DNA of 54,007 bases from Nesterenkonia sp. E16_10 (lineage in GTDB: Bacteria; Actinomycetota; Actinomycetes; Actinomycetales; Micrococcaceae), in contig NZ_JADPSA010000031.1 of assembly GCF_017347085.1 (NCBI RefSeq), positions 1 to 54,007 of the forward strand, written 5' to 3'. Under the pieces are notes generated by a model. That model was not told the origin of the DNA, searched no databases, and saw only the letters and a list, made by a program, of their open reading frames with translations. Within the stretch, counting starts at the first letter, position 1. Every line of letters begins with the position of its first letter. Below are positions 14,673-43,298 of this stretch, in pieces. Position numbers and translations under genes: made by a program.

Positions 14673-14681
14673 ACAACAGCA

Positions 14682-14761: not shown

Positions 14762-14810
14762 TTGGTCGGGATGACAGGCTTCTCTTGGAACTTGGGTCAG
14801 TCCCGACCAA
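14762..14810. repeat. 10-bp inverted repeat downstream of the recombinase set
   Basis: TTGGTCGGGA (14762-14771) and TCCCGACCAA (14801-14810) are perfect complements around 29 bases. It could mark the element end, an att-like site or a hairpin. The surrounding 14673-14920 holds no gene I can support. Confidence 0.4.
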
Positions 14811-14920
14811 TGCGTCGTTGCGGGATCGGATCATCGATGCGGCATGAGAACCAGGAAATCTCGACACCACAAAACCCGGGACAGACCAGAGTCTCCAAGA
14901 ATCCCAGTGTGGTTCAGTCT

Positions 14921-16917: not shown

Positions 16918-17067
16918 GTGCCCATAGTACACCCATAGGTAGTAAAGCGTGACGCAAACAGAACCACTTGTCGCTTAAAGCGATTGGTAGTTTCCTCGTG
17001 GCGATCCCAATCAGGGGCGGCACCTGTGCATCGCAGTCGCTAAGACCGGGACTCTAGGGCCGGGTGA

Positions 17068-17502: not shown

Positions 17503-18133
17503 CCTTCACCCATTGCAACGTGACTATCCCTGGTGTCGTCACCAAGACAGTCGATGGGGGTCTCCCCCGCTGACTGCTGGCCGAAGGTCAATCTTGATGT
17601 CAGGTTGGCTTCCGGGGTGCCTAGTCTCGGTTGCCACTAGCCTGCGCGCCCTGCTGTCGTGAGAGACGGTATTCCTTTATTCCAGTATCTACGGTTGTGC
17701 GGGTGGAGAGCGGGAACATGCTCAGAACTGGAATCGCTTGTCAGCCCCTGGGCGGCTGGGCCCCATTCGGCTGCTCAAGGATCAACGAGTTGTCTATTAG
17801 GGGAATTATTGGGTGCATTCCGCTCAACTCGAGGGGCTAGCGACTCTCGGATGGTCTACGAGTAGAGAAAACTTTCTCGCGATCTTCGTAGTACGTGAGC
17901 TCCTTCTCGGCCTAGATGCCCTATGGGCCTGCCGCACTCATAGCCGACCCACGACAACGTGGCTAGCATCGGGTTTCGTGGCTACGACGCACGAGTGGTC
18001 TCCCCCACTCACCGCTGCCTGATGACATGTCCCGAAGGTCTTGGCTATTTTCGTTAGAGTGCTGGAGTAAAATAGTGTGAGTAGCTACGTCAATCATGTA
18101 CCGCGGCCTAATTAGGTCAACTATCAAAGTGAT
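17503..18133. other. Gene-free stretch with a degenerate direct repeat
   Basis: No open frame here looks coding. Two related segments occur at about 17556-17589 and 17995-18040: both have GGTCTCCCCC, then a CTG-rich piece, then CCGAAGGTC. ATGTCAGGTTG at 17597-17607 repeats the 11 bases at 11509-11519. The stretch looks like scar tissue between the PIN remnant and the low-GC MFS gene, where base composition falls toward 18.1 kb. Confidence 0.4.
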
Positions 18134-19330
18134 CTACAGATTGTTTCTAGAGTTTAGCGATATGTAGGTGATAGTAGACGCCGAAATAAGCAGTAATATG
18201 ATAATAATTGTCGTATCACTATACTCAAGCGCGAATAACGATATTATACTTGGAGCTAGAAATCCGGTATATGCAAGGGCGTAAAACTTCCCCATAGCTT
18301 CCCCGAGGTGTTGTGGAGCTGACAAGCGTTGAGTCTCAAGTGCACCAGACACCAGCAGTAAACCGTATCCGCAACCCAGGACTCCACTAGCAATAAATCC
18401 GATCATCGTGATCTGAAGCAAAGCAGCCATTAGAGCGAAAATCAGTCCGACAAAACTCACGATCAGAGCAATGATGATGGACCTGGCCGACGTTGGCGTA
18501 TCGATCTTTCTACCCAGCGACTGTACTGCGACACCGCATCCCATCGTCAGTCCTACTGACAGCGTCGAGTGCAATATGGGGCTGCTTGGAGATATCAGTA
18601 ATTGTGGTACCACTGCAAAGCCGATCGTTCCTGATCCAAAGGCCCAGGGGGCGGCCGGAAGGATCACCGTTCGGAATCTCGATGGAGCGCGCACATAGGC
18701 CCAAAGTTGTCGATCTCTGTCATGGGTTCTTGGGACGCCTCGCTGGGTCGCACGAGTTTCCGGCGATTGTAGAAGCAGAAATATAAGCGGAATGCACAAG
18801 GCAATATGGGTTCCGTAGGGAATCACCGCCGGGGCGGGTGCGTATGCTGCCAACAGACCACTGACAACGGGCCCCGTGAAGAATCCTCCCGTGACAAACA
18901 GGGAGGCTCGTCTAGCACCGGAGGTGACGTCAGCTGCTGCGTCCCACGGTGGTTGTGAAAGCTCCTTGATCCAACTCGTGGTGGCAGCCATCGCTATTCC
19001 AGTCGCCACGCCGGAGAGTAGTCGACCTGGAAATATCCAGGGAGACCACCAAGCCCCGATAACCATTGCCACACTTCCAAAGACGGCCACGAGTAATGCA
19101 ATGAAAGTTATTCGTTTGCGACCGTACTTATCCGACCATCCTCCACTGATCAACAGCGCGGGCACGAGCCCAAATATATACACGCTTAACATCAAAGTCA
19201 CGGTTAATCGTGAGAATCCGAAATTACCCTGGTAAAACGTCAGCATCGAAGCGAACTGATTAGCTCCCCAGCCGATAAGGAAAAGCGTGACCGCGGGCGG
19301 GAGCCACCTCCGTCGTGAATTGGGTAGCAC
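18134..19330 (-). CDS. MFS transporter of lower GC content
   Basis: This 398-residue protein has about twelve hydrophobic helices and the MFS signature between helices 2 and 3 (SGGWSDKYGRKRITF). It is a proton-coupled permease of unknown substrate, possibly an exporter. The start is GTG at 19330 without an obvious ribosome site. The coding sequence, especially the last ~250 bases with ATA, ATT and AAT codons, is clearly less GC-rich than its neighbours, suggesting separate acquisition. It is monocistronic and flanked by gene-free DNA on both sides. Confidence 0.8.
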   Translation of the reverse strand: MLPNSRRRWLPPAVTLFLIGWGANQFASMLTFYQGNFGFSRLTVTLMLSVYIFGLVPALLISGGWSDKYGRKRITFIALLVAVFGSVAMVIGAWWSPWIFPGRLLSGVATGIAMAATTSWIKELSQPPWDAAADVTSGARRASLFVTGGFFTGPVVSGLLAAYAPAPAVIPYGTHIALCIPLIFLLLQSPETRATQRGVPRTHDRDRQLWAYVRAPSRFRTVILPAAPWAFGSGTIGFAVVPQLLISPSSPILHSTLSVGLTMGCGVAVQSLGRKIDTPTSARSIIIALIVSFVGLIFALMAALLQITMIGFIASGVLGCGYGLLLVSGALETQRLSAPQHLGEAMGKFYALAYTGFLAPSIISLFALEYSDTTIIIILLLISASTITYISLNSRNNL

Positions 19331-19515
19331 AGACAGTCTCGAATCGCAGTCGATATAAGGAATGGGAGAGTGGGGTAATCCCAGGACCGTGTTTCAGCGG
19401 CTAGCGCGTGAGGCCAGTGGAATAACTGTGGCTGCTGTGAGTCGAGGAGGCCGCTGGCACCTGAAATTCAGCCAAATTGGGTGAACTAATCTGACGATTT
19501 GGCATAGGAATGGGG

Positions 19516-19560
19516 AGACAGGTGGGTCCTCAGAATTTGGGCCCCGAGGCCCACCTGTCT
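19516..19560 (-). terminator. Hairpin after the MFS/quinone-oxidoreductase operon
   Basis: Perfect 11-base arms (agacaggtggg at 19516-19526 and its complement at 19550-19560), extended by CCTC/GAGG inside, lie 60 bases beyond the stop at 19622. The remaining intergenic DNA from 19331 to 19621 holds nothing else I can identify. Confidence 0.65.
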
Positions 19561-19621
19561 ACCTTGTCCCGAACACCGGGCAGCTTATGTGCGGTTTGAA
19601 CCAATGATGGCTGGCTCGGAA

Positions 19622-20629
19622 TCACACATCTAGGAGGATTTTCCCGATATGGGTGCTCGCTTCCATTTCGCGGTGAGCCTTCAGAGCCTCTTCTAAAGGG
19701 TAGCGGGACTGAATGATCGACCGGATAGGGCGCGGGCTATCCGAGTTAAAACTCGGCCATAGATGCTTCTTCGCCTCACTGACGATCTTCGCCTTGGCTT
19801 CCGGTGAGCGGCTGCGCAGTGATGTCGCTAGGATGCTGCCTCGTTTTGCGAGCAAAGCTCCCAGGTCAACCTCTCCGACGCGGCCGCCGAGTAGCCCAAT
19901 GACGACTAATCGTCCATCAGGAGCTAGGACTCGTACGTTCGATTCCAAGTAGGTTGCCCCTACCACGTCGAGGATGACGTCCACTCCCCTGCCTTCTGTC
20001 GCGGACAGGACCGCCTCTGCGAAGTTCTGCTCGCGATAGTTGATCAGCACCTCCGCGCCCAGTTCTGAACACGCCTTTAGCTTCTCGGCCGATCCGGCAG
20101 TCACGATCACGTGGGCTCCGAGGGATGCAGCCACTTGGATCGCCATCGTGCCGATACCACTGGAACCGCCATGGATCAGAACGGTTTCGCCCTCCCGTAG
20201 TCCCGCCTCCAGGACCAGGTTGCTCCATACCGTGCATCCAACCTCGGGCAGTGCGGCCGCATTCGATACGGACATGCCCTCCGGCACAGGAAGTACCTGA
20301 CCGATAGGGACTGCTACAAACTCTGCATAACCACCCCCGGACAGCAACGCACATACCTCGTCACCGATACCCAAGCTGGCGCTCTCAAGACCCGGTCCCA
20401 ACGCCACGATCCGGCCACTGGCTTCCAAGCCTGGCAGCTCACTGGCCCCCGGCGGTGGTGGATACACGCCGTGGCGCTGCATGACATCGGCACGATTCAC
20501 CCCCGCGGTGACGACCTCGATCAACACCTCTCCCTCCCCTGGACTCGGTCGTGGAACGGTCGTCGGTACGAGTGCCTCCGGGGCACCATCTGCGTCGGGA
20601 TCAATAGTTACTGCTCGCATAGTTTCCAT
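19622..20629 (-). CDS. NAD(P)H-quinone oxidoreductase (PIG3-like, zinc-free MDR family)
   Basis: This 335-residue protein matches the medium-chain reductase family: an N-terminal GroES-like domain (GVNRADVMQRHGVYPPPPGA, GLEASGRIVALGPG) and a Rossmann domain with the nucleotide loop IHGGSSGIGTMAIQVA near 155-170. It lacks the zinc-binding cysteines of alcohol dehydrogenases. It would reduce quinones or enoyl-type substrates with NADPH in the cytosol. Its ATG abuts the stop of the MFS gene (TGAATG), so the two form an operon. MRAVTI five bases further in is an alternative start. A role linked to the imported substrate is likely but unproven. Confidence 0.88.
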   Translation of the reverse strand: METMRAVTIDPDADGAPEALVPTTVPRPSPGEGEVLIEVVTAGVNRADVMQRHGVYPPPPGASELPGLEASGRIVALGPGLESASLGIGDEVCALLSGGGYAEFVAVPIGQVLPVPEGMSVSNAAALPEVGCTVWSNLVLEAGLREGETVLIHGGSSGIGTMAIQVAASLGAHVIVTAGSAEKLKACSELGAEVLINYREQNFAEAVLSATEGRGVDVILDVVGATYLESNVRVLAPDGRLVVIGLLGGRVGEVDLGALLAKRGSILATSLRSRSPEAKAKIVSEAKKHLWPSFNSDSPRPIRSIIQSRYPLEEALKAHREMEASTHIGKILLDV

Positions 20630-22024
20630 TCAGACAACCGCTGTCCCTTTCGTTTCAGGATCGAAGTCAAGGCCAGGTTCGAAATCCACATCCCTCGTCT
20701 CTGGGCCCATGAGCGCGCCCACTGAGACCAGCAATCCACCAATGACCAACAGAGGCAGCACTGTGAGATCCAGAGGCATGAAGGATTCCAGGCCCACCTG
20801 ATAGAAGGCGTAGAAGGATGGCGGAATGACGGCGAGGCTGTATCCGAGACCGAACCCAGTCGCCCGAACCCCGGTTTGGAAGCGCTCGTTCAAGTAGGTG
20901 GTCGCCAGACCCCAGAACCAAACGATGATCCAGACCATGGCGCCGACCAGGATGATGACCCCGAGGAACGAGCTGGGTGGCGAAGTCAGCAGCCAGTAGT
21001 AGAGCCCGGCCCCCGGGATAGCCGCACCTAGTCCTGACAGGATCAAGAACGGGCGTCGTCCCACCCGCTGGCTGATCTTGCCCGCAACCATGTAGCCAAC
21101 CCCCAGGAACAAGAATGTGATGCAGAGAAGGATCGTGACCTGCGTGGAGGTCAGCCCGACCACGTTCTGCAACAGCCCAGGCAGTATTGCAGTCACTGTG
21201 TTGAGGGTCAGCCAGAAGCCGCTCATCAAGACAAAGACCTGGGCGAATGCCTTGATACTCCGCTTGCTGCCGAACAAAGTTTTCAGCGGTGACTTAGTGC
21301 CACCTCCCTTGGCGAATACTTCGGATTCTTCTACGTTGACGGCATACCACCAGACATACGCCACTGCTATGAGCCCACCAATGATGAAGGGAATCCTCCA
21401 GCCCCACTGGACATACGGCGAACCGAGGCCATCAGCGGGAGCGATCTGCAACATGACGAGGGTAAGAGCAGAGATGGCAACGAACGCCAGAGGGAACCCC
21501 AACATGATGTAGGCCCCCCACGTGCCGCGCTTCTTCTTAGGCAGGCGCTCCATGGCGAGTGGACTCGCAGATGAATATGACGCTCCCACGAAGATCCCGT
21601 CAACAAGGCGGAGCACGATGAACAGAACGACAGCGAGAATCCCCCAAGTCTCGTAACCAGGCATGGCAGCCATCGCGAAGCTCATGAACCCGTAGCCAGA
21701 GACCGCAACGATATTGACTATCTTCCGACCGAGACGATCAGCAAAGCGTCCGCCGATCAGTGCTCCGATTGGGCGCCCCAGCAATGTCGAGACGAAGATC
21801 AGTGACGTGACGATGACGACCTGACTCGCGGGCATGTTCGGCGACAGAAAATACACCATTGCCGGTCCCAGGGCGACAACAGGCAGATAAATGTCGTACA
21901 TGTCGATAAAGAAGCCAGAAAACGCGCCATGCGCAGCCTTTTTCGCCTTCGGATCTAATTGCTCGTCCTTCACTTCCTGATGCGTCGTCGGACCGTCCGT
22001 GACAGAACTATCAATATTAACCAT
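20630..22024 (-). CDS. MFS metabolite:proton symporter
   Basis: The 464-residue protein has twelve predicted helices and the sugar/metabolite-symporter motifs GGRFADRLGRKIV (helix 2-3 loop) and a helix 4 RLVDGIFVGASYSSASPLA. This resembles the metabolite:H+ symporter branch that imports organic acids. It has an acidic N-terminal tail before helix 1. It is the first gene of a leftward operon with the quinone oxidoreductase and is divergent from the carboxylase operon across a 276-bp regulatory region, which suggests uptake of the substrate metabolised by that operon. The substrate is unknown. Confidence 0.85.
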   Translation of the reverse strand: MVNIDSSVTDGPTTHQEVKDEQLDPKAKKAAHGAFSGFFIDMYDIYLPVVALGPAMVYFLSPNMPASQVVIVTSLIFVSTLLGRPIGALIGGRFADRLGRKIVNIVAVSGYGFMSFAMAAMPGYETWGILAVVLFIVLRLVDGIFVGASYSSASPLAMERLPKKKRGTWGAYIMLGFPLAFVAISALTLVMLQIAPADGLGSPYVQWGWRIPFIIGGLIAVAYVWWYAVNVEESEVFAKGGGTKSPLKTLFGSKRSIKAFAQVFVLMSGFWLTLNTVTAILPGLLQNVVGLTSTQVTILLCITFLFLGVGYMVAGKISQRVGRRPFLILSGLGAAIPGAGLYYWLLTSPPSSFLGVIILVGAMVWIIVWFWGLATTYLNERFQTGVRATGFGLGYSLAVIPPSFYAFYQVGLESFMPLDLTVLPLLVIGGLLVSVGALMGPETRDVDFEPGLDFDPETKGTAVV

Positions 22025-22185
22025 TGTCTTCTTCTCTCAGCACGCAATGGATGAGGATCAATAGCGGGGTGCATACCGCTTGTGATACCTAAAAAAACTC
22101 TTAAAGGGCACTCGAGGGGCAATAGAGCAGCTGCCCCACGGCTTCTCCGCTCTCATGCCGTGCCAGTCTCATGGGACAAAACTAA

Positions 22186-22201
22186 TGTGTCAAATATCAC
22201 A
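22186..22201. promoter_or_regulatory. CRP/GlxR-like site
   Basis: TGTGTCAAATATCACA matches the TGTGA-N6-TCACA consensus of CRP-family regulators (GlxR in corynebacteria) at nine of ten consensus positions. It lies 8 bases upstream of a TTGACG -35-like box (22210-22215), a position typical for activation of the carboxylase operon. Confidence 0.5.
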
Positions 22202-22222
22202 TTTAGGGGTTGACGTAGCGTC

Positions 22223-22258
22223 GTGAGTACGATTTCATGGACGTGAATACGTTTTCAC
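22223..22258. promoter_or_regulatory. Tandem LacI-family operators upstream of the carboxylase operon
   Basis: GTGAGTACGATTTCAT (22223-22238) and GTGAATACGTTTTCAC (22243-22258) are near-identical, each a palindrome around a central CG as in LacI/GalR operators. Their start-to-start distance is 20 bases, two helical turns, so two dimers would bind one DNA face. They lie between the -35-like box and the TTG start at 22301; the LacI gene ends the operon. Confidence 0.65.
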
Positions 22259-22300
22259 AGCCCATGGCGGTCCGATGACGCCAGAGACACGAGGTCAGAG

Positions 22301-23827
22301 TTGACGAACGATACGGAAACCATTGCGTCGGTGATGAGCCGCGGCGGACGACCCGCTAACAGTCGTCGTGAGATCAAGATCATCGACACAACCCTGCGCG
22401 ACGGACATCAAAGTCTCTGGGCAACGCGGATGCGGACCGAGCACATTGAACAGCTCGCTCCGGAGTTCGATCAAGCCGGATACGAGCACGTTGATCTGGT
22501 CGCGCCGATCCAATTCGACGTGGCGGTGCGCTACCTCAAAGAGGATCCTTGGGAACGCGTGCGCAGGGCTCATGAACTGGCTCCGAACACCAAGTTCCGA
22601 GCACTCATCCGCTCTCGCAACATCGCAGCTTTCGATTTCCTGCCCGATGACGTCATCATGGCCTGGGTTGAGCGGCTCTATGCCAACGGATTCCGTGTCA
22701 TCGGCTCCTTCGACGGGCTCAATGACATCGACAACATCGCACCTGGACTGCGCCGGGCGAAAGAACTTGGAGCGGAGACCTTCGGGGCGGTGTCGTTCAG
22801 TGAAAGCCCCGTACATACCGACGAGCTCTTCGTCTCGAAGGCACAGGAGCTCATCGAAAAGGCCGACGTCGACCGCATCATGTTGAAGGACGCCGGCGGG
22901 CTGCTCACACCCGAACGCATTCGGTCTCTCGTGCCCGCGCTCAAAGCAGTGATCGGAGATCGACCGCTCGAAGTCCACACCCATTCGCTCACGGGCCTCG
23001 CTCCCCTGGTCTGCCTCGAATCGGCGGAGGCCGGGGCAGACTCTATCCACCTCTCGGTCGCCCCGCTGGCTGCTGGAAATGCCCAGCCCTCCGTGCAGAA
23101 CGTCATCCGCGACCTCCGGGCCCTGGGTTACACAGTGAATCTCGACGACTCGAAGATCGACGAGATCAGTGACCATATTCGGATGATCGCTGAAACTGAG
23201 GACAAGCCTCTTGGTGAGCCTGTTGAGTACAGCGGCATGCACTTCATGCATCAGACCCCAGGGGGGATGCTCTCGAACTTCCGTTCCCAGCTCGAAACCT
23301 CGGGCCTCGGGGACCGTTACGAGGAGCTTCTGCTCGAGATCGCACGTGTGCGCTCCGAACTCGCCTACCCCATCATGATCACTCCTTTCGCTCAGTTCGT
23401 CGGAACTCAGGCGGCCATGAACGTCTCAACCGGTGAGCGCTACAAGATGGTGCCCAATGAGATCAAGAAGTACGTGCTCGGGTATTACGGTGACCTGCTG
23501 GCCGAGATTAATCCCGAACTGCGCCAGAAGATCATCGACAACGGCGCTTCCGACATCCCCTTGGAACCATCTGACCCAGAACCCATGCTCGACAAACTTG
23601 CCACCCGATATCCAGACGAATCCATCGAATTCCACCTGCTGCGTGCGATGTTCGCCGGCGGCCAGGTTGATGAGATGAAGAAGACGGTAGCTGCAGGTGG
23701 CAATCTCGACGAACTACCGGCGCCGCTGTTCGAAATCGTGAAGTCGCTCCACGAAAACGGACAATCCGGCGTCAACTCCCTGACAGCCGGAGACCTGCAC
23801 ATCAAAATCATCAAAGGAGAGAACTGA
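22301..23827 (+). CDS. Biotin-dependent carboxyltransferase, 5S/pyruvate carboxylase CT type
   Basis: The 508-residue protein is an HMGL-like TIM barrel followed by the PYC/oxaloacetate-decarboxylase helical domain. It shows [18 protein letters not shown] (29-46), the catalytic lysine segment MLKDAGG (Lys196) and the metal-binding HTH at 226-228. The family moves CO2 between biotin and an oxo-acid (pyruvate/oxaloacetate, as in PycB, OadA and transcarboxylase 5S). It has no fused biotinyl domain. The start is TTG at 22301, with GAGG 6 bases upstream; ATG 22334 is an alternative. It is the first gene of a 5S-AccB-AccC operon, with no acyl-CoA carboxyltransferase subunit in sight. Confidence 0.88.
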
Positions 23828-23829
23828 TC

Positions 23830-24363
23830 ATGGCGCTGAACCAGCCTGACATCCGCGAGCTCAAGTCCCTGGTCGACTGGGTCAACACCACTCCCGATGT
23901 CCGGGAGCTCTCCATCAAGTATGGTGACGTCGAACTCTTCGTCTCTCGCAACGAGCGCACCCCCGCATCCGCCCCGGTTGCGCCGGCCGCCTCGACGGTA
24001 CCGACGGGGGCGGCGGAACAGTCACCCGCACCAGCCGCTGCGACCGCAGAATCGGCGACGCCCGCCTCAGCGCCCACCCACGGGGTCGCCCCCAAGCCCG
24101 CTGCCGCAGCCGCTGAGGACGAAGTGACCATCACCGCGCCTATGGTCGGCACGTTCTACTCCGCCCCAAACCCCGGCGCCCCAGCCTTCGTGGAGGTGGG
24201 CGACCGGGTCTCAGCCGACTCGGTCTTGTGCATCCTTGAAGTCATGAAGTTGATGAACAATGTAGAGGCCAAGGTCGATGGTGTCGTGACCGAGATCCTG
24301 GTGGAGAACAACGAGGCCGTGGAGTTCGGCCAGCCGCTGATGGTGATCAAGCGTGACAGCTAA
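23830..24363 (+). CDS. accB: Biotin carboxyl carrier protein (AccB type)
   Basis: This 177-residue protein has an AccB-like N-terminal domain ([19 protein letters not shown]), an Ala/Pro linker (about 45-95) and a C-terminal biotinyl domain. The biotinylated lysine is Lys140 in LEVMKLMNN. It carries CO2 on biotin between the carboxylase and carboxyltransferase active sites. The separate, AccB-style carrier is unusual beside a 5S/PycB-type transferase, which often carries its own biotinyl domain. It starts 2 bases after the preceding stop and overlaps accC by 11 bases. Confidence 0.93.
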
Positions 24364-25717
24364 GCAGCTCAACAGCATCCTCATCGCCAACCGCGGAGAG
24401 ATCGCCCTTCGCATCGTCCGCGCCTGCAAAGAACTGGGAATCACCAGCGTTCTTGCCTACTCCGAAGCAGACCGAAGCTCCCTTCCGGTGAAGCTCGCCG
24501 ACCGAGCGGTCTGCATCGGACCGGCCAGTGCCTCGAAGAGCTATCAGGATCCGCGAGCAATCATCAGCGCTGCATTGGCCTTCAAAGTCGATGCGATCCA
24601 CCCCGGCTACGGCTTCCTGGCCGAGAACGCGGATTTCGCAGAGATGTGCGAGACCGAAGGTGTCGGGTTCGTCGGCCCCGCATCAAGCATCATCCGAAAC
24701 ATGGGAGACAAGATCCAGGCCAAGAAGATCGCGCGCCGTGCGGGCGTTCCCACCGTCCCAGGGTCTGACGGCGCGATCGCTCAGCATGCTGAGGCGGTTG
24801 CCGTGGCCAACGAGGTTGGGTATCCGCTGCTGATCAAAGCCTCCGCGGGCGGCGGCGGCAGAGGGATGCGGGTCGTGGAATCAGCAGAGACCCTGGAGCG
24901 CGATCTCGCCGAGATCATGTCAGAGGCCGAGACGGCCTTCGGTGACCCAGCAGTGTACTTAGAGCGCTATCTCACCGACATCCGCCATATCGAGATACAG
25001 GTGGTCTCCGACGGTGAGTCGACTGTGCATCTCGGCGAGCGTGACTGCACCGCCCAGCGTCGCAACCAGAAGCTCGTGGAGGAGTCGCCCTCCCCGGTTC
25101 TGGACGAGGAGCTAAGAGTCAGCCTGGCGGAGGCCGCTGTAGCCCTGTGTCAGGAGGTCGGCTACCGCAATGCCGGGACGGTGGAGTTCGTTTTCGACAA
25201 CCTCGAGCGACGGTATTACTTCATCGAGATGAACACCCGCATTCAAGTCGAGCATCCGGTCTCCGAGATGGTCACCGGCATCGACCTGATCAAGCTCCAG
25301 CTCGAGATCGCAGCGGGCAATCCACTCCCTATTGCCCAGGACGACATCACGATCCGTGGCCACGCGATCGAGTGCCGGATCAACGCCGAAGACCCCGCTC
25401 AAGCCTTCGCGCCGAAGCCCGGTCGGATCGAGTCTTTCCGGGCTCCAGGTGGCTTCGGAGTCCGTCTCGACACCCATATCGAGACCGGGTACGTGATCCC
25501 TCCGTTCTACGATTCGATGGTAGGCAAGCTCATCGTCTGGGGCAACGATAGGGATGAAGCCATCGCTCGGGCTCTGCGGGCTCTCGACGAGATGCACGTT
25601 GAAGGTGTGACCACCACAGCGGGATTCCAACGAGACATCCTCGACAGTGCGACATTCCGTAGCGGCGACTTCAATACCGCTTTCGTCGCAGAGTTCCTTG
25701 AGGGTGAGACCGCCTAG
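24353..25717 (+). CDS. accC: Biotin carboxylase (AccC type)
   Basis: The 454-residue protein is a full-length biotin carboxylase of the ATP-grasp superfamily: N-terminal [29 protein letters not shown], the glycine-rich ATP loop [13 protein letters not shown] and the active-site [15 protein letters not shown]. It carboxylates the biotin of the carrier protein with bicarbonate and ATP in the cytosol. Its start overlaps accB by 11 bases, implying coupled translation and a fixed subunit ratio. No acetyl-CoA or propionyl-CoA transferase gene is near, so the acceptor is set by the 5S-type subunit. Confidence 0.94.
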
Positions 25718-25869
25718 CCGTAGTTCCGCGACACATAATCGACGCCGCCAGAAGTGCGAGTGACTCTTCGATCGACCGTCTGGCCTGTAAACGCCAAATG
25801 TTCCTCTCCGCGCCGCACATGAGAAAGTAAGTACGGTGCCGCACGTTGTGGCGCGGAGGAGGGATGTCG

Positions 25870-26868
25870 ATGCCTACGGGCAGGGAAATCGCGCAAGCGG
25901 CTGGAGTGTCCCAGGCGACCGTCTCACGCGTGGTGCAAGGATCGGCGCGTGTCAGCGAAGAGAATCGCCGCCGCGTCGAAGAGGCGATGGCCAAATTCGG
26001 ATATGTACCCAACGCGCAGGCTCGTGCCATGCGCACTCAGCGCTCTGGTGCGATCGGCGTCATCGCAGGAGAGTTCACCAACCCCTGGTATCCGGTGATG
26101 ATGTACGCGCTGGCCAGGGAGATCAACCGCGCTGGCCTGCGAATTAACTTCTGGGTATCCGACGGCGAGAACAGCGAGCAAGCCGCCATCGAAGCGATCC
26201 GGTCCAAACTCATCGACGGGCTGATCTTCACGACCGCCACGCGTGACTCACAGGCCTTGCCGATGGCTCTTGAACTAGGTCTTCCTGTGGTGCTGGTCAA
26301 CCGCAGTCTCGAGAACATCACCAGTGATCAGGTCACGGGCGATAACATCGGCGGAGGCGCCGCCGTCGCCTCCTACTTCCTTAAGCACGGACGCACCCGC
26401 GTCGCGGTTGTCGGTGGAGGGCCGTGGGTCAGCACGGGACGAGAACGGCGCAAGGGTTTTCTAGACATCTACGCCGACGCCGGAATCCACGTACCTTCCG
26501 CGCGTGCCCCTGAGACGGGGTTCACCCATCAAGCGGGTCTCGACGCAGGAAGAGCGCTTCTGGCCGCGGATCCACCGCAGGCAATCTTTTGTGCCACCGA
26601 CATCATCGCGTTCGGTGTGATCGATGCCGCGAAGGAACGGGGGCTTCGTGTGCCCGAGGATCTATGGGTCGCCGGTTATGACGATATTCCGATGTCTGCG
26701 TGGCGAGTCCTCGACCTTACGACGGTCCGCCAACCCATCGACGAGATGGCCCGACTCTCGCTGAAAATTCTCCTGGCCCGCATCAAGAACCCCGAAACAG
26801 CAGTCGAACAGGAACGCTTTCAACCCGAGCTCATCGTCCGGGGCACCACGGGCAACATGCCGCGGTGA
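25870..26868 (+). CDS. LacI-family transcriptional regulator
   Basis: From ATG 25870 the protein is 332 residues and begins [20 protein letters not shown], the classic LacI helix-turn-helix, with [20 protein letters not shown] as hinge lead-in. Residues 60-330 form a periplasmic-binding-protein-like effector domain ([37 protein letters not shown]). A GGAGGAGGG ribosome site precedes it; ATG 25864 and GTG 25846 are in frame but too close to or upstream of that site. It follows the carboxylase operon after a 152-bp gap and is the natural candidate to bind the tandem operators at 22223-22258. Confidence 0.9.
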
Positions 26869-27057
26869 TCGCCACCCAAGCACTAGAGAGATGCCCTGCA
26901 CGTATCGAAGCAGCATCTAGGACTGAATCGCTGGGATAGTTCATCAGCGACTACCTCTGTCCAAGAACATGACACCGCTCCGAGTCGGGCCCGAACTACC
27001 CGATGATGAAAGACTCGTGAATCAGCGCTACTCGATTTCCTGCTGCCAGACTCGTGG

Positions 27058-27657
27058 TCACTCTTCCAGTCCGCGTGCGGTCAACGCATCGCCGACATCG
27101 TCGGCATGTTTCAGCGCGAGCACCAGCGTCGGTACGACCCACGACCACGGTGGCAGCCGAACTCCGCGCGAACGTTGGGCATCACGGACCTGACGGATCA
27201 TGGCCGATAGCTGTCCGACTGACGTGAGAACTAGAGCCATGGCCAGGCCAATCTTGGCCGGGTTAGCGCCGAACCGGCGTAACGGAGCAAATAGCCGCTC
27301 AGCAGTGGCGATAATCGACTCGATCTCTGTCGTGCGAGTCAGCACCTGGGCCAGCAGGACAATGCTGATCACCCGCGCAGTATTAGTGGCCGCGGTGAGT
27401 AGGTCAAGAAAGATGAGTTGTGTGACCACCAGGAAAACCAGGAGCATCAGCAACCGACGGAGATCTGTGAGCAGGAGCCGCGCCGGTAAGCCAGCAAGAG
27501 CGTAGCCAAACACGGGAAGCACAAGTAGCCCCCCTACACTCCCCCACGCAACGGGCAGGAAGAACAAGGCCAGCGCCAAGAGCGCGAAGCCAGCAAGCTT
27601 GATCCCGGCCGAGGTGCGGTGCAGCAAAGAAGCCCCCGGGTGATAAAGCGAGATCAT
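27058..27657 (-). CDS. bioN: EcfT-type biotin transporter membrane component BioN
   Basis: ATG 27657 gives a 199-residue protein with about five helices, beginning MISLYHPGASLLHRTSAG, a typical EcfT/BioN start. The signature coupling motifs are present as MIRQVRDAQRSRGVRLPP near residues 155-175 (two ARG-like coupling helices; the first is atypical). It couples ATP hydrolysis by BioM to biotin uptake by BioY in the cytoplasmic membrane. The start overlaps the bioM stop by 4 bases. It is the last gene of the operon. Confidence 0.88.
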   Translation of the reverse strand: MISLYHPGASLLHRTSAGIKLAGFALLALALFFLPVAWGSVGGLLVLPVFGYALAGLPARLLLTDLRRLLMLLVFLVVTQLIFLDLLTAATNTARVISIVLLAQVLTRTTEIESIIATAERLFAPLRRFGANPAKIGLAMALVLTSVGQLSAMIRQVRDAQRSRGVRLPPWSWVVPTLVLALKHADDVGDALTARGLEE

Positions 27658-28409
27658 CCGTGGTGGTCCTTTGACGGCCCCGGGGTGAACGACGCGGGGC
27701 CACTCGAGTCCGTCGCGGAGATCATAGCGAGGTAATTTTCGATGACTGTGTCCGGTCTTCCGTGTTCCTGCACCTGACCTTGATGGATCCACACCGCTTC
27801 TTCGCAACGACGGGCCAAGTCAAGGTCGTGTGTGATCAAGACCAGCTGAGTTTCCGCCGGCTGGGCGAACAACCGGCGGCTGACGAGGCGGTGGTGGCGG
27901 GCATCCAACATCGAGCTCGGCTCATCGGCGATCACTACTCGGGGTCTCCCGACCAATACCGAGCATAAGGCGAGACGCTGGAGTTGTCCGGACGATAGAG
28001 AAAGGCACGAGCGGTCGGCGAGTTCAGTGAGGCCGTGTTCAGCCAGGGCAAGGTCTACCTGGGTGTCGATCTCACGTCGGTTGACGCCTCTGCCACGCAG
28101 AGTGAGCGCGACATCTTCTCGCACAGTGGGCATGATGACTTGGGCGGCGGCGTTAGCGATGATGAACCCGGTGTCGCGACGCAACCGCCTCGCGTCGCGG
28201 ACGACGTCGAGCCCGTTTACCGTGACAGTCCCGGAGGCAGGTGGGAGAAGCCCGCCAATGACTTTCGCCAGCGTAGATTTTCCGGAACCATTCTCGCCAA
28301 TGATCGCTGTCGTCTTAGCCGTGAGTTGTGTAGTGACCCCGTGGAGTAACGTGACGTCGCCCTCATGTCCGGTCGCGGTGACGGTGAGTCGGTCGACACT
28401 GATGCTCAT
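27654..28409 (-). CDS. bioM: EcfA-type ATPase BioM of the biotin transporter
   Basis: The 251-residue protein is an ABC ATPase: Walker A GENGSGKST (38-46), Q-loop region near 85-90, signature LSSGQLQRL (about 137-145), Walker B VVIADEP (about 157-163) and the switch histidine in LITHD (about 193). It powers the energy-coupling-factor biotin importer with BioN and BioY. Four-base overlaps with the thiolase gene upstream and bioN downstream show tight coupling. Confidence 0.9.
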   Translation of the reverse strand: MSISVDRLTVTATGHEGDVTLLHGVTTQLTAKTTAIIGENGSGKSTLAKVIGGLLPPASGTVTVNGLDVVRDARRLRRDTGFIIANAAAQVIMPTVREDVALTLRGRGVNRREIDTQVDLALAEHGLTELADRSCLSLSSGQLQRLALCSVLVGRPRVVIADEPSSMLDARHHRLVSRRLFAQPAETQLVLITHDLDLARRCEEAVWIHQGQVQEHGRPDTVIENYLAMISATDSSGPASFTPGPSKDHHG

Positions 28410-29635
28410 TGATTATCTCCGATCGGATCTTCGAGGCGCTCGAGAAGGACGGCGACTCCCATTCCGCCAGCGATGGCGCATGCTGCAACACCGAGCGATC
28501 CTGGTTCGGCGGCTACGAGTCGATGGATGAGTCGGCCGACGGCGATCGCGCCGGAAGCACCCCAAGGGTGTCCCAGGGCGAGGGCCCCTCCGGTGGCGTT
28601 GACTCTGGAGTCGAACCGCATTTCGGCTCCTGCGGGAGATGTGCCGGACCCGGTGAGACCGAGTTCGTCAACGACCGCCAAGACCTGTGCCGCGTAGGCT
28701 TCAACGATTTCGACAGCGAACAGGTCCTGCAGGCGGGTGCCCGCAGCATCTAGACATGATTGGATCGCGTCTGCCGCGGCGATCCCGGGCAGGGTCGGAT
28801 CTACTCCGACCAATGCAGTCGCTCGAATTCGACACGGTGAAAGCACCACGCCTGTCGAACCCCCACCGTCGTGGATGGACACGTGCTGTACCGCCTGCAA
28901 CGGTGCAAGCAACACAGCGGCCGCGCCGTCGGCAATTCTTGCAGCAGTGGCTGGCGTAACCGTGGCCCCAGGAGCGTCCCGGACTGGTGAGAATCGGGAA
29001 GCTGTGGCCGCATTCAGCCGGCGAGGGCCATCGTCGTACCCCCGGGTCAGACCATCCGGACTCGTCGCGATTTCAAGGGCGGCGAAAGCGGCGTGTCTCA
29101 ACGAAAGGTCGTGGCTGCGCACCGCGGCGGCCTCTTGCCTGCTTCGCGAGATCCCACGGATGAGGGCGAGATCGTCAGCGGCTTCAGTCATTGAGGGATC
29201 TGGCCAGTTAGCTGGAGTAAACGGCGCCTGAGTGTAAGCCTGGCCCCCGAGGGTTCGAATGGGGGCGGTGGAAGGACTCTCGGTGCCGCCCGCGATGAGC
29301 GGTGCACCTATAAGTTGGACGTGGCCGGCAGCCTGAACGATCGCGGCCAAACCGGAACCGCATTGGGCATCGACAGTGATTCCCGGGACGCTCTGGCCCA
29401 GGCCTGCGCCCAGAGCCGCGATGCGGGCGATATTGCCTCCAGGTCCGATGCAGTTACCCAGGACCACACCCGCTGGATCGGTCCCAAGATGCGTCTGAGC
29501 GGCAGCGGCGAGCGGAGCGATGACATCCGAGGCTAGTTGGTCTGCGGTACGGTCAGCTTGGCTCCGGGAGCGTCCAGTCACCGGGGTGCGAGCGGTGGCG
29601 ACCAGAGCGACGTCGAGAGCAGGCGTGACGATCAT
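28406..29635 (-). CDS. Thiolase (acetyl-CoA acyltransferase), YhfS-like
   Basis: This 409-residue protein has the thiolase fold: active-site Cys92 in VDAQCGSGL, His356 in LGHPWGASG and the C-terminal cysteine in CAIAGGMG (about 386). It would condense or cleave acyl-CoA thioesters. It is embedded between an acyl-CoA ligase and bioM. In Bacillus subtilis the BirA-controlled yhfUTS operon likewise joins BioY (yhfU), an acyl-CoA ligase (yhfT) and a thiolase (yhfS), so the grouping with biotin uptake is recurrent. The actual substrate, perhaps a pimelate or biotin side-chain precursor, is unknown. Confidence 0.87.
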   Translation of the reverse strand: MIVTPALDVALVATARTPVTGRSRSQADRTADQLASDVIAPLAAAAQTHLGTDPAGVVLGNCIGPGGNIARIAALGAGLGQSVPGITVDAQCGSGLAAIVQAAGHVQLIGAPLIAGGTESPSTAPIRTLGGQAYTQAPFTPANWPDPSMTEAADDLALIRGISRSRQEAAAVRSHDLSLRHAAFAALEIATSPDGLTRGYDDGPRRLNAATASRFSPVRDAPGATVTPATAARIADGAAAVLLAPLQAVQHVSIHDGGGSTGVVLSPCRIRATALVGVDPTLPGIAAADAIQSCLDAAGTRLQDLFAVEIVEAYAAQVLAVVDELGLTGSGTSPAGAEMRFDSRVNATGGALALGHPWGASGAIAVGRLIHRLVAAEPGSLGVAACAIAGGMGVAVLLERLEDPIGDNQ

Positions 29636-30825
29636 GGCGCTTGATCCATCAGTTGCTGCGCATCCGCATAGGACAGACGGCGGACCTTGCCGGGTCCCGT
29701 GCGAGGTAGGAAAGTCACCAGGCGCAGGCTGCGTGGATACTGTGCTGGGGTGAGCTGTGCGCGAGCTCTACGTAGGAGAGTGCGACGGTCCAGTTGGGCG
29801 CCGAGTTCAGATTCGATGAACGCCACCACTCGTTGGCCAAGCACCTGGTCTGGCGCAGCTACGACCAGGCTCGCCTTAACTCCCGGTAATCCGTTGAGAA
29901 TGGTCTCAACATCGTGTGGCAGGACCGTGGCGCCTGCGGTGAGGATGGCGTCGTCTGCGCGGCCGTGAAGTGTCAATACGCCGTTGGAGAGCGTGGCTCG
30001 GTCCCCAACGGTCCCCCATACTTCCGTGGAGGTTTGAGCCTCGACCGCGGGAGCGGTGCGCAGGGAGGAACCGTTCCCGACTATAGCGGAGCAAAGCTGT
30101 GCGCTGCGGGCCCAGAGGGTCCCGTCGTCGTCCACGCTGAGTTCCACGCCGGGGAACGCACGCAATCCGGTTCCGGCGTCGACGGCGATAAAACTCAGCT
30201 CGGCCGCACCTGCGTAGCTCACCACCTGCAGACCGAGCTGACGGGCATGCATGGCTACTTGGTTATCGAGCCGATCACCCCCGATGAGGATGGCCCGCAG
30301 CGTGCACCGGGCCCCGTTTTGGATCAGGCCCAGGACCTCTCTCAGGTGCCACGGGGTGCCGTGCATGAAGTCAGGTCCATCCAGATCCTCGGCGCGCAGA
30401 CGGTGGGTCTGCGGAACGACGAATCGCAATCCAGTTTCCTGCGCGTGCGCAGCGGCATACAGCGCCATAGATGACACAGGGTGTACTGGGATCAGTATGG
30501 CGTCCCCAGGCCGAGCTTCTAGCAGGCGAGTGATTGCTTTGAAGGAGCATGCCCAGGACTCGTGGCTACGTATTACGATCCGCGGCGAACCCGTCGATCC
30601 AGAAGTGAATCCTGCCCAGGCTGCGTGTTCAGGAAGTTCCCGTTGAGTTGCCTCCGCGAGCAGTCCTCGCCATTGCTCCTGGCTCCACCGTTCATCGCCG
30701 ATCAGGGGAACGCCGCCTTCGAGCCGGATCTGCAATGCCGCCGCGAGCACCGCGGCGTGATTGTCACCGCGCAACGGTTCGAGAAACATTCCCCTCGAAC
30801 CAACCCCTTTAGCTGCTCTGGTCAC
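29632..30825 (-). CDS. AMP-forming acyl-CoA ligase, YhfT-like
   Basis: The 397-residue protein is a short member of the ANL superfamily. The P-loop GFTSGSTGSPRIVIRS lies at 72-87, YAGAAELSFI corresponds to the adenylate-binding motif, and the C-terminal lid has LHGRADDAILTAG and PRTGPGKVRRL with the catalytic lysine. It would activate a carboxylic acid to its CoA thioester. It is shorter than typical FadD proteins (about 500 residues) because the N-terminal region is reduced. Four-base overlaps join it to bioY and the thiolase gene. A biotin-precursor acid is the contextual guess. Confidence 0.87.
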   Translation of the reverse strand: MTRAAKGVGSRGMFLEPLRGDNHAAVLAAALQIRLEGGVPLIGDERWSQEQWRGLLAEATQRELPEHAAWAGFTSGSTGSPRIVIRSHESWACSFKAITRLLEARPGDAILIPVHPVSSMALYAAAHAQETGLRFVVPQTHRLRAEDLDGPDFMHGTPWHLREVLGLIQNGARCTLRAILIGGDRLDNQVAMHARQLGLQVVSYAGAAELSFIAVDAGTGLRAFPGVELSVDDDGTLWARSAQLCSAIVGNGSSLRTAPAVEAQTSTEVWGTVGDRATLSNGVLTLHGRADDAILTAGATVLPHDVETILNGLPGVKASLVVAAPDQVLGQRVVAFIESELGAQLDRRTLLRRARAQLTPAQYPRSLRLVTFLPRTGPGKVRRLSYADAQQLMDQAP

Positions 30826-31436
30826 GCGTGAAAGGCCCGTGGGTAGGCCCGCCAGAGGGCCATTGTCACGACCACCGTGACTCCGGCTTTGATCACATCA
30901 GCTGGGAGGAACGCCAGCGAGGTCAGTGCGGTCTGTCTCAGATCGAGTCCAGTCACCACCGCCTGTGCCGGAATGCCGAATAGATAGATGACGCCGATGC
31001 CCCCGATCATCGCACCCAGTAGTACACGTGGCCATTTGATCCGAGGGTGTCCTCGTACCCCGTGGACGATCAAGCCGATCACCATAGCCCCCACGATCCA
31101 ACCGATCAGATATCCCACCGACGGCCCTACAAATACTCCCAGGCCGCCCCTGCCTCCCGAGAGTAGCGGCAGGCCTAAGGTAACCATTAGGAGCAGCAGT
31201 GATACCGACGCCGCCCCCCGCCACGGGCCAAGTACAGCGCCGGCTAGCATCACACCCAGTGTTTGCGCGGTGATCGGCACAAGTCCCGGCACCGCGATTG
31301 CGCCCATCAACCCAAGTGCACCAATGAGGGCTGCAAACACCGCAATCTGAGCGACTGCTCGCATCGACACCCCAGAGGTTCGAGGACCCGCGTTCGACTC
31401 AAGCTCGGACTCATCGGGGGATGTAATCGTAGTCAT
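30822..31436 (-). CDS. bioY: Biotin-binding S component BioY
   Basis: This 204-residue membrane protein has the BioY helices, including PGLVPITAQTLGVMLAGAVL, the substrate-side segment GLPLLSGGRGGLGVFVGPSV and GYLIGWIVGAMVIG. It binds biotin and pairs with BioM and BioN for high-affinity import. It is the first gene of the operon, with an AGGAG ribosome site that overlaps the proximal BioQ-type operator, so repressor binding would shield the promoter and leader. It is divergent from bioQ. Confidence 0.93.
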   Translation of the reverse strand: MTTITSPDESELESNAGPRTSGVSMRAVAQIAVFAALIGALGLMGAIAVPGLVPITAQTLGVMLAGAVLGPWRGAASVSLLLLMVTLGLPLLSGGRGGLGVFVGPSVGYLIGWIVGAMVIGLIVHGVRGHPRIKWPRVLLGAMIGGIGVIYLFGIPAQAVVTGLDLRQTALTSLAFLPADVIKAGVTVVVTMALWRAYPRAFHA

Positions 31437-31444
31437 CTTGCTCC

Positions 31445-31471
31445 TGAACAGTGTTCACTGAATGGTGTTCA
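31445..31471. promoter_or_regulatory. Two BioQ-type operators between bioY and bioQ
   Basis: TGAACAGTGTTCA (31445-31457) is a perfect palindrome with a 3-base spacer, and TGAATGGTGTTCA (31459-31471) is a one-mismatch copy 14 bases on. Their form matches the known TGAAC-N3-GTT(C)A BioQ sites of corynebacteria. A TAGACT -10-like box (31472-31477) for bioQ abuts the second copy. Confidence 0.75.
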
Positions 31472-31486
31472 GTAGACTCTAGGGTC

Positions 31487-32071
31487 ATGGCTGCCCAAAA
31501 TTCAACTGTGCACATCTCTATTCCGGCCATAGTCGGGGTTGCCACGGAGATCCTCGAGCAGTACGGCCTCGCCGATCTCTCCATGCGTCGCGTAGCTACT
31601 CAACTAGGAGTCCAGCCCAGCGCACTGTACTGGCACGTCAAGGACAAGCAATCCCTCCTGGCTCTTGTCGCGGACCGGCTACTCGACTCAGTGAGACTCG
31701 ACGCGTCGCTCTCGGACTGGCGATCCGAACTTCGTACACGCGCCGTCACTCTGCACGCTGCCCTGCTGAGCACCAGGGACGCAGCAGAACTAGTTGCCTC
31801 GGTGGTCGCCCTCGGAACCGGGGGCCACAGGCTACGAACGATCATCGCCGGCGCGTCCTCTCACCTTCCCCCAATGATGGAAGGCGCCAACACTATCGCT
31901 GAACCTGAACTACTACCCGGCCCGCTGGTTGACGCAGTATGCTCCTTACTGCTCGGCAGTGCCTTGATCACCCAACAACGCGCTCAGGCTGCAGAGTTCG
32001 GAGTGGTCACCACCGATTCCCCACCACTATCTGATTTTCCCGCGATGCTGGACCTGCTGCTCGACGCCTGA
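31487..32071 (+). CDS. bioQ: TetR-family regulator, BioQ type
   Basis: ATG 31487 gives 194 residues starting MAAQNSTVHIS; the GTG at 31451 would lie inside the operators. The N-terminal TetR helix-turn-helix is DLSMRRVATQLGVQPSALYW (about 30-55), followed by a helical ligand-binding domain. Its position, divergent from bioY with two palindromes between them, fits BioQ, which represses biotin genes and itself in corynebacteria. The -10-like box ends only 9 bases before the ATG, so the message may be leaderless. The biological signal is inferred to be biotin status. Confidence 0.82.
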   Translation: MAAQNSTVHISIPAIVGVATEILEQYGLADLSMRRVATQLGVQPSALYWHVKDKQSLLALVADRLLDSVRLDASLSDWRSELRTRAVTLHAALLSTRDAAELVASVVALGTGGHRLRTIIAGASSHLPPMMEGANTIAEPELLPGPLVDAVCSLLLGSALITQQRAQAAEFGVVTTDSPPLSDFPAMLDLLLDA

Positions 32072-32097
32072 GTCTCCCGGACCACGAGCTCGTCGAT

Positions 32098-32427
32098 TCA
32101 ACCTTCATGGGGCGCGACGAAATACAGGTCGGCGTGCAAATGGCATCGTGGGTTGAACGGCGCCGCGCAGTGGGGGCAAGACCCCACTTCCAGGTACTCG
32201 CAGACGGAGAGTTCGCTTGTGCAGACCCCACAGAGGATCGCCTTGGAAGCTTGTTCGTCCACTGGCCACTGCGCCGCCGGGTGATCCGCACTCTCCTGGT
32301 GACAGAGATGGCAGGGATAGTACTCCTGGCAGCACCAGAACTTAATAGCGACTACGTCCAGCGGCGTCCGGTAATGCTTACATCGTGTTTGGTCGTCGAC
32401 CGGACTCCCCAAGACTCGACTCACCAC
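32098..32427 (-). CDS. CHY zinc-finger protein
   Basis: The small protein contains the CHY zinc-finger pattern: TRCKHYRTPLDVVAIKF, CCQEYYPCHLCHQESADHP, then ILCGVCTSEL and CPHCAAPFNPRCHLHADLYF, with most cysteines and histidines of the fold in place. Bacterial CHY proteins are of uncertain role, probably zinc binding or redox. GTG 32427 is preferred because GGAGG lies 6 bases upstream; ATG 32442 would add five residues. It converges on bioQ. It is not obviously linked to biotin uptake. Confidence 0.85.
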   Translation of the reverse strand: MVSRVLGSPVDDQTRCKHYRTPLDVVAIKFWCCQEYYPCHLCHQESADHPAAQWPVDEQASKAILCGVCTSELSVCEYLEVGSCPHCAAPFNPRCHLHADLYFVAPHEG

Positions 32428-32650
32428 AGGGCACCTCCGCATTTCGCTTCGTCCTGGTAAGGAACGCGAGACAGTCCAATTTCGAGTGGCAACAAGAACT
32501 CAACCTCCTCGACTGTTCTGGGTATTCAACTGGGGCAGACCAAAGACTCCCTTGAGCTCAAGCTGCTTCTAGGCGGATCAGACCATCGCGACGACTCTTC
32601 CGCGCTGAGCCTTAGAGAACAACGTCCGGTACAGCTGGCGGTTCATGACG

Positions 32651-33277
32651 TTAGGACTCCAAGTATTGCGTGCGGATGAAGTCCGCGAGGAAACGAGGGT
32701 CGCGGTGACGGTCATAGTCTCGGAGCAGCTCGATGTAGCGCTGTTTGTCGAGATCCCAGTCGTAGATCTCAAGATGTTCAGTTTCTTGTGTTGCCGCAAA
32801 GACTAGGTCTGCCAGCAGCCGGGTGGTGCGGCCGTTGCCATCAACAAAAGGATGGACCCTCACCGTCTCGGCGTGGACAGCGACGCCTAACTGGTGGGGA
32901 GTCCAGTCCACAGTGTGTTCCCAGCGGTAGCGAATGGTTTCTATCGAGTTCCGCAGCTCAACTGCGATATTCTCCGGTGCCACTCCGATGTTTAGTTCGC
33001 GCTTGCGAAAGATTCCAGCCCAGAGCCAAATGTCCGCATAGAGGCGCCGGTGCAAGTCCCGAACGAACTGATCAGTGAGGAGGTTATCAACAGTCAGACT
33101 TCCGTCGAGAACAGCGATTAGAAAGGCTTCAGCGGTGTCTTCCTGCAAGGCCTGTTCAAGGTCATAGACCGCGGCTTTGGTGACTTCACCGCCGAGTAGA
33201 TCTTTGGCTGCGGGGGCCAACGCGGCCAGCTCGTCACCGTCTACCGGTGTCTCACCGTAGCCCGGGGTGAGTGACAT
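32651..33277 (-). CDS. Fic-family AMP-transferase toxin (mobile mystery protein B-like)
   Basis: The 208-residue protein holds the complete Fic motif HPFVDGNGR (142-150) and the flap region WLWAGIFRKRELNIGV. The family transfers AMP or another nucleotide to target proteins. Layout and size recall mobile mystery protein B. I do not see an (S/T)xxxE(G/N) inhibitory helix in it, so restraint probably comes from a partner. Its ATG overlaps the stop of a 51-codon upstream gene by 1 base, the usual arrangement for an antitoxin-toxin pair. It sits at the 3' side of the T4SS operon. Confidence 0.88.
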   Translation of the reverse strand: MSLTPGYGETPVDGDELAALAPAAKDLLGGEVTKAAVYDLEQALQEDTAEAFLIAVLDGSLTVDNLLTDQFVRDLHRRLYADIWLWAGIFRKRELNIGVAPENIAVELRNSIETIRYRWEHTVDWTPHQLGVAVHAETVRVHPFVDGNGRTTRLLADLVFAATQETEHLEIYDWDLDKQRYIELLRDYDRHRDPRFLADFIRTQYLES

Positions 33278-33432
33278 CAGTCGCGCTGGCGGCGTTCAGC
33301 GAGGAAGCGCTCGACACGAGGTTCCCGGACGAATGTGGCCGGAACAACGCGGCGCTCCAGCTTGGCGGAGGCTTTAGTGGATCGGACAGCAGCCTGCTTA
33401 ACCGCGGCTTTGCTGACGACACGACGCTTCAT
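33277..33432 (-). CDS. 51-residue basic protein, putative Fic partner/antitoxin
   Basis: The frame begins MKRRVVSKAAVKQAAVRSTK and ends FLAERRQRD, rich in Arg, Lys, Ala and Val. A clear GGAGGAG ribosome site lies about 10 bases upstream and the stop overlaps the Fic start (TGATG). It lacks the (S/T)xxxE(G/N) motif of VbhA/FicA and does not resemble YhfG. It may neutralise Fic by another route or bind DNA. Short length and basic composition limit the call, but the coupling is strong evidence that it is translated. Confidence 0.7.
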   Translation of the reverse strand: MKRRVVSKAAVKQAAVRSTKASAKLERRVVPATFVREPRVERFLAERRQRD

Positions 33433-33465
33433 GACGTGAATCTCCTCCACACTCGTTAGGTGTTC

Positions 33466-35091: not shown

Positions 35092-35134
35092 CAACACCCC
35101 TTCAGGTGTGTTCGTGCAGTTGTGTGGTCGAGAC

Positions 35135-43293: not shown

Positions 43294-43298
43294 CCGCC

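Follow-up and report, generated by a model that had tools for sequence, protein, structure and literature searches.

Neighbouring operons for a biotin-dependent carboxylase and a biotin importer on a plasmid-like contig of Nesterenkonia sp. E16_10

Contig C31 of Nesterenkonia sp. E16_10, 54,007 bases long and one of 51 contigs in a draft genome of 3.30 Mb, was analysed in its entirety and is referred to as the window. It carries an operon for a three-subunit biotin-dependent carboxylase that converges on an operon for the biotin importer BioY/BioM/BioN, with a gap of 189 bases between the LacI-family gene of the first and the bioN gene of the second. A repeated linkage of the carboxylase and BioY across relatives is shown by comparison. 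Several relatives also have both functions adjacent, in varying arrangements; this suggests a useful pairing, not an accidental one. As an explanation favoured with moderate confidence, a conjugative-type element would carry a catabolic carboxylase together with a second importer, meeting the extra cofactor demand in a host that does not make biotin. The linkage would have been kept by selection on cofactor supply.

Gene content and control of the two operons

The carboxylase genes are read from the forward strand. They encode a 5S-type carboxyltransferase subunit (22301-23827) with HMGL-like and PYC_OADA domains, the biotin carboxyl carrier protein AccB (23830-24363, exceeding the TIGR00531 cut-off), the biotin carboxylase AccC (24353-25717, exceeding the TIGR00514 cut-off) and a LacI-family regulator (25846-26868) with the Pfam domains LacI and Peripla_BP_3. 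Carrier, biotin carboxylase and carboxyltransferase share one operon, as in multisubunit biotin-dependent carboxylases. Regulators encoded at the same place in two related loci, L054 and L071, are 84 and 83% identical, respectively. Upstream of the 5S gene lies a predicted LacI-type operator doublet (22224-22257, sites at 22224 and 22244), which is present at the same position also in L054, L071 and Nesterenkonia pannonica (L109). An earlier note on this DNA had placed a 5S-AccB-AccC set and its LacI regulator near a biotin importer; the open reading frames (ORFs) and family matches at 22301-26868 bear this out.

The biotin operon lies on the reverse strand. Its BioY biotin S component (30822-31436) exceeds the PF02632 cut-off with 118 bits. 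A BioN-like T component of the CbiQ family (27058-27657) exceeds the cut-off of PF02361; its start was set at an internal ATG of a listed ORF that reaches 27807, and with this start the gene overlaps that of the BioM-like ATPase (27654-28409; best model TIGR04520, under its cut-off). Between bioM and bioY, within the same run of overlapping genes, a thiolase-family protein (28406-29635; PF02803 and PF00108 exceeded) and an AMP-binding acyl-coenzyme A (CoA)-ligase-like protein (29632-30825; PF00501 and PF13193 exceeded) are encoded. The S, T and A components of a BioMNY-type energy-coupling factor importer occur in one operon. The earlier description as a complete BioY/BioM/BioN importer stands as far as the three components are concerned; the thiolase-family and ligase-like genes had been overlooked. 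By position, these two proteins are YhfS-like and YhfT-like, and we take YhfS to be thiolase-like and YhfT to be acyl-CoA-ligase-like. In Bacillus subtilis, bioY occurs with yhfT and yhfS (extract of PMC11089781). The B. subtilis set is BirA-controlled, whereas its window counterpart has a BioQ-type operator.

A TetR-family regulator, perhaps BioQ-like (forward strand, 31451-32071, likely start at ATG 31487; PF00440 exceeded), is encoded by a gene that faces bioY across a predicted BioQ-type operator doublet (31445-31471). The doublet consists of TGAACAGTGTTCA at 31445-31457, an exact biotin operator between bioY and the likely tetR start, and TGAATGGTGTTCA at 31459-31471, which deviates by one mismatch. 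TGAAC-N3-GTTCA is the operator consensus for biotin genes of actinobacteria (extract of PMC3398298). Its occurrence at the bio genes, as in a BioQ regulon, agrees with the BioQ-type control put forward in the earlier note, now predicted from the doublet between bioY and the TetR gene. Three matches with at most one mismatch were counted in the window versus 0.98 expected from shuffling; because this excess is small, the evidence for the operator is that of position and comparison. Of 12 further BioY loci retrieved from this genus, all but L037 contain the exact operator (11 of 12); in those of them that were checked, its distance to the BioY match is about 150-170 bases. Among the paired loci, only the window has it. 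Proteins similar to the TetR-family regulator are encoded at two other BioY places, in genomes G138 (L044) and G178 (L043/L069). BioYMN of Corynebacterium glutamicum, as described in the same extract (PMC3398298), has the same three components and operator consensus; the window operon differs from it by the added ligase-like and thiolase-like genes, the mobile-type contig and the carboxylase neighbour.

Apart from the pair upstream of 5S, no LacI-type site TGAATACGTTTTCA was found in the window within two mismatches, and LacI control of the bio operon was rejected for this reason. Since the operators of the two operons differ in the window, joint control would be at most indirect there.

Recurrence of the pairing in relatives

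The earlier note had proposed to look for the pairing in other plasmids and chromosomes, and there it recurs. The wider loci comprised the best 79 of at least 540 relatives from a scan of genome contigs. A BioY profile, built from 22 BioY proteins with every paired one included, was run over 89 loci or windows. It found BioY in the window, L054, L056, L071, L072, L079, L082, L085, L120 and L148, and in no other of those scanned; L056 and L079 are one and the same place, and a short BioY-like piece in L084 was left out of the count. In a quick tree of 49 chosen rows, with pairing states assigned by hand, the 15 rows nearest the window include eight paired (BioY within about 10 kb), four unpaired and three set aside for short flank. 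The two functions are paired in 8 of the 12 assessable nearest rows, i.e. they are not always apart. An unpaired call demanded at least 5 kb of upstream and 7 kb of downstream flank and a paired call did not, giving a slight bias toward pairing. The BioY background amounts to 19 loci in 15 genomes, or about 0.8% expected per 20 kb. Both plasmid records with more than 70% identity to the window 5S (L071 and L072) carry BioY.

The arrangements are diverse. In the window, LacI is followed by the convergent bioN-bioM-thiolase-ligase-bioY, then by TetR and the gene of a CHY zinc-finger protein (32098-32442, reverse strand, PF05495). L054 and L071 have the order 5S-AccB-AccC-LacI-CHY-BioM-BioN-BioY, all in the same direction; the CHY homology leading the importer genes starts 54 and 82 bases past LacI, respectively, and a single transcript is plausible in these two loci. 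BioY-BioM-BioN is divergent from 5S in L056, and lies several kb downstream in L082 and L120, with opposite orientation between the two. BioY comes immediately after AccC in L072 and L085, and a convergent importer follows AccC in L148 (Sulfitobacter, 42%). Homologues of the CHY zinc-finger protein adjoin BioYMN genes in L054, L056/L079, L063, L071, L082 and L120. On plasmid pNK84 of Caballeronia sp. NK8 (L075, 55%, 14010-24863), the carboxylase lies by an ActP-like symporter, carbonic anhydrase, BioA, BioF and BioB. The three Bio proteins exceed their cut-offs, with an unassigned ORF where BioD is expected; the symporter is shorter than its model, and the carbonic anhydrase is named by annotation and stays under the NCBIfam cut-off. 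This relative adjoins both cofactor and bicarbonate supply. A class III transaminase gene (gamma-aminobutyrate-transaminase-like in L087) stands right after AccC in L083, L086 and L087, the place of BioY in L072 and L085.

Chance neighbourhood, by which two independent cargoes were inserted side by side on one mobile element, appears rather unlikely. It would account for the separate operators of the window, for a bio operon of chromosomal type and for the lack of pairing in most of the wider family, but less well for the pairing of 8 of 12 assessable nearest-clade loci in several layouts and for the biosynthesis version in Caballeronia. A number of observations do weigh against a linked cargo. 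In the 49-row tree, 10 rows are paired, of which L075 owes its label to synthesis genes and the other nine to BioY; 29 rows are unpaired and 10 were set aside for short flank. Unpaired rows thus make up 29 of the 39 that could be assessed, and every one of the 13 Corynebacterium rows is among them. The pairing label requires seven state changes on this tree, and starred branches force six of these. After shuffling of the labels, the mean is 9.0 changes and 24 of 500 shuffles get by with as few as seven, a modest clustering. Scored with the three set-aside rows as unpaired, the nearest clade yields 8 of 15. The paired copies are spread over several groups of the BioY tree, yet three changes suffice for the label there, so one importer lineage may underlie several of the pairings. 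In a family sample of 395 genomes, 18 matched 5S at 1e-60, six of them closely (at least 73%, window included) and the other 12 at 35-39%. Among the five other close carriers, BioY lies about 5 kb from the carboxylase in G272 and 1.7 kb in G375, which has a second, broken 5S copy; it lies elsewhere in the remaining three, G331 (N. pannonica), G055 and G384. In genome G153, which lacks a 5S match at 1e-60, BioY occurs at two loci; a spare importer therefore needs no carboxylase. The window bio operon itself resembles ordinary chromosomal ones (L063 and L066), in which ligase-like and thiolase-like genes also stand inside the biotin uptake operon and whose thiolases, adjoining chromosomal-type BioY, are 48% (L063) and 56% (L066) identical to that of the window. 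The earlier reading of both operons as one functional cargo gains from the recurrence, the varied orders and the synthesis version in Caballeronia, and loses by the 29 unpaired rows and the separate window operators.

Class and candidate substrates of the carboxylase

Acetyl-CoA carboxylase was rejected as the main function, the carboxyltransferase being of 5S type. An ordinary enzyme of the pyruvate carboxylase/oxaloacetate decarboxylase type, serving anaplerosis and supported by the importer, is quite unlikely. Pyruvate carboxylase subunit B, OadA and transcarboxylase 5S are the best relatives in the PDB and NCBIfam and share the domain family (HMGL-like and PYC_OADA), and NF006761 was passed narrowly (412 versus 402 bits). 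The residues D34, K196, H226 and H228, which we take to be the metal site, as in transcarboxylase 5S, are invariant in eight family members. The window protein remained under the cut-offs of the equivalog models NF008985, TIGR01108, NF010644, NF008984 and NF009554. Furthermore, the motifs KDM, FRxFDA and WGGATFD common to those enzymes are altered in the window carboxyltransferase and replaced family-wide, presumably in the substrate pocket. The family reads KDA(A/G/S/C)GL and (I/V)GxFDGLND in rows where the patterns matched; as some rows were missed and the WGGATFD pattern matched none, no family-wide motif count is given. Alignment places VAPIQFD of the window at WGGATFD of the solved relatives. 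The host has its own pyruvate-carboxylase-like protein of 1168 amino acids, which reads IKDMAGL and FRIFDALND.

Of 19 Micrococcales/Nakamurella loci, eight have genes for CoA-transferase A and B and a thiolase close to the carboxylase (L072, L077, L078, L080, L083, L084, L109 and L120), a further point against anaplerosis; of 13 Corynebacterium loci, eight have them too (L091, L092, L094, L095, L098, L099, L100 and L104). The other 11 of the 19, some with short flanks, include the window, L054 and L071. Because the conserved motifs differ and relatives have these neighbours, a pyruvate carboxylase is probably not what the operon encodes. On the same two grounds, we infer a methyl ketone as substrate and a 3-oxoacid as product. 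It counts against this assignment that the 3-oxoacid CoA-transferase and thiolase set is absent from the fetched stretch of the window, L054 and L071. In N. pannonica (L109), several genes of the cluster that comprises carboxylase, CoA-transferase and thiolase seem frame-broken, or this part is poorly assembled.

Levulinate carboxylase is a possible, tentative assignment. The enzyme would convert 4-oxopentanoate with bicarbonate and ATP into 3-oxoadipate, which would enter the beta-ketoadipate route. Thiolases of L072 and L077 scored best with PcaF models, under their cut-offs; in the PDB, the L072 thiolase is nearer to beta-ketoadipyl-CoA thiolases than to most of the acetoacetyl-CoA thiolases listed, with two unlabelled entries ahead. 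The L096 (Vreelandella) thiolase is a PcaF over the cut-off, encoded beside protocatechuate dioxygenase subunits (over) and a PcaD-like gene (under). Host contig C40 bears a PcaR-family regulator barely over the cut-off (287.5 versus 284.8), accompanied by similar genes for CoA-transferase and thiolase and by a QuiC-like ORF under the cut-off; L104 has a PcaR-family gene over the cut-off. In the Micrococcales/Nakamurella rows compared, six for each protein, identities to the host PcaR-adjacent set were 68-80% versus 42-46% for CoA-transferase A and, L087 apart, 54-64% versus 36-38% for the thiolase.

A biotin-dependent acetone carboxylase is regarded as improbable. Acetone would be carboxylated to acetoacetate, and CoA transfer and thiolysis would yield acetyl-CoA. 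The CoA-transferase and thiolase neighbours suit this route as well, and several findings favour it while opposing 3-oxoadipate: among solved structures, SCOT-type subunits come nearest to CoA-transferase A of L072, CoA-transferase A of Corynebacterium L091 and L104 is nearer to the SCOT-like one of the host (56-58% versus 43-44%), the thiolase of L091 exceeds the cut-off of an acetyl-CoA C-acetyltransferase model (644 versus 551 bits), and that of L087 shares 56% identity with the AtoB-like one of the host. Organic-acid-type transporters adjoining many loci argue against acetone, as does the closeness of the Micrococcales/Nakamurella CoA-transferase A and thiolase (L087 apart) to the host PcaR-adjacent set. 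The CoA-transferase/thiolase type was rejected as a clean 3-oxoadipate marker, Corynebacterium and L087 leaning to acetoacetyl types. The evidence on levulinate conversion to 3-oxoadipate is mixed, with acetone as the standing alternative.

The phosphophenylethanone carboxylase HpeCBA from Rhodococcus rhodochrous GD02 carboxylates a methyl ketone and consists of three separate subunits, carrier, carboxyltransferase and biotin carboxylase, as in the window (extract of PMC9618137). The sequences aligned were carboxyltransferases of two Rhodococcus plasmid clusters, which are 38% identical to the window protein and read EDA and YDGLF, in contrast to KDA and FDGLN of the window family. In these two (L073, 11965-13464; L074, 9965-11464), glutamate stands where the family has the presumed metal-ligand lysine. 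Their clusters carry kinase-, thiolase- and phosphatase-type genes; kinase and phosphatase neighbours of the HpeCBA/Xcc type were not found among 16 ORFs scanned at 18134-35097 of the window. The lva levulinate pathway of Pseudomonas putida proceeds via levulinyl-CoA and a phosphorylated intermediate and would have the substrate in common with the window enzyme, if levulinate is right; the lva route does not go by carboxylation (extract of PMC6692424). Among open-licence papers, covered by titles and starts of abstracts, searches on levulinate, carboxylase, biotin and 3-oxoadipate gave no such enzyme, and those listed on biotin acetone carboxylase or on biotin transporter with carboxylase did not contain the pairing. 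Genes for an MPAB/Lcp-type oxygenase near the carboxylase in L059 (10447-13089), where an aldehyde dehydrogenase family gene was confirmed as well, and in Corynebacterium L104 (17226-19883) might feed the carboxylase from isoprenoid cleavage.

Probable mobile element, host biotin supply and proposed function

The window contig encodes a relaxase, a TraG-type coupling protein and a ParA-like protein; relaxase and coupling protein together are the mark of conjugative plasmids. The best plasmid relatives of the coupling protein are from Micrococcales (60-63%). The contig is likely a plasmid, as the earlier note had it; the replicon is not closed, no exact terminal overlap being found in the 54,007-base draft contig. 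An integrase-family gene (11722-12855) makes an integrative element also possible. The element further carries a gene for a Y-family polymerase (UmuC-like, 45545-46867). Megablast yielded no near-identical plasmids for positions 33000-48500; for 19000-32000 it gave just five records, each matched over a short or partial stretch. The window thiolase had no plasmid match at 1e-40.

The host genome contains no BioB over the cut-off and two weak matches under it, from which a biotin requirement would follow. Its two matches to the ligase family PF03099, between biotin and lipoate ligases not distinguished, are on contigs C1 and C36; the contig itself has none, in line with the earlier statement that BirA is missing from the window. 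Four biotin-carboxylase C-terminal domains are encoded, that of the window included. A second BioY with BioN is encoded on contig C38 (L064). The window importer was rejected as the only one of the host, and because of this second set the cargo would add an importer; the earlier idea that the plasmid brings the means to obtain the cofactor is refined accordingly to an additional supply. No BioM-like gene was found by the C38 genes even at E up to 1, and the next BioM-like match of the host genome at 1e-25 is on C29 (39%). L067 and L068 likewise have BioY and BioN but no BioM-like ATPase next to them.

Next to the carboxylase, the reverse strand encodes a metabolite/H+ symporter of the MHS type (20630-22024; TIGR00883 best with 160 bits, under the cut-off of 443) and a PIG3-type NAD(P)H quinone oxidoreductase (19622-20629, exceeding the TIGR02824 cut-off), the latter adjoining MHS and 5S genes in N. 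pannonica L109 as well. The symporter would import an organic acid, and LacI would free the carboxylase genes from the conserved operator doublet. A host biotin ligase would biotinylate AccB, ligase-family genes being present off the window. AccC would carboxylate biotin, and the 5S-like subunit would hand the carboxyl group to a methyl ketone, forming the 3-oxoacid. Cleavage of this product could fall to the CoA-transferase and thiolase encoded on host contig C40. As biotin falls, BioQ-type repression would be relieved and import by BioY/BioM/BioN would rise.

Catabolic genes on mobile elements are as a rule assessed only by the enzyme they encode. That cofactor supply comes along repeatedly, through import in actinobacteria and through synthesis on a single Caballeronia plasmid, would show that it can belong to the transferable trait. 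The comparison also draws attention to a carboxylase family that has no substrate assigned to it, and it supplies a candidate. If true, the levulinate assignment would mean a route by which a keto acid is carboxylated, disseminated by mobile DNA that brings along the vitamin supply.

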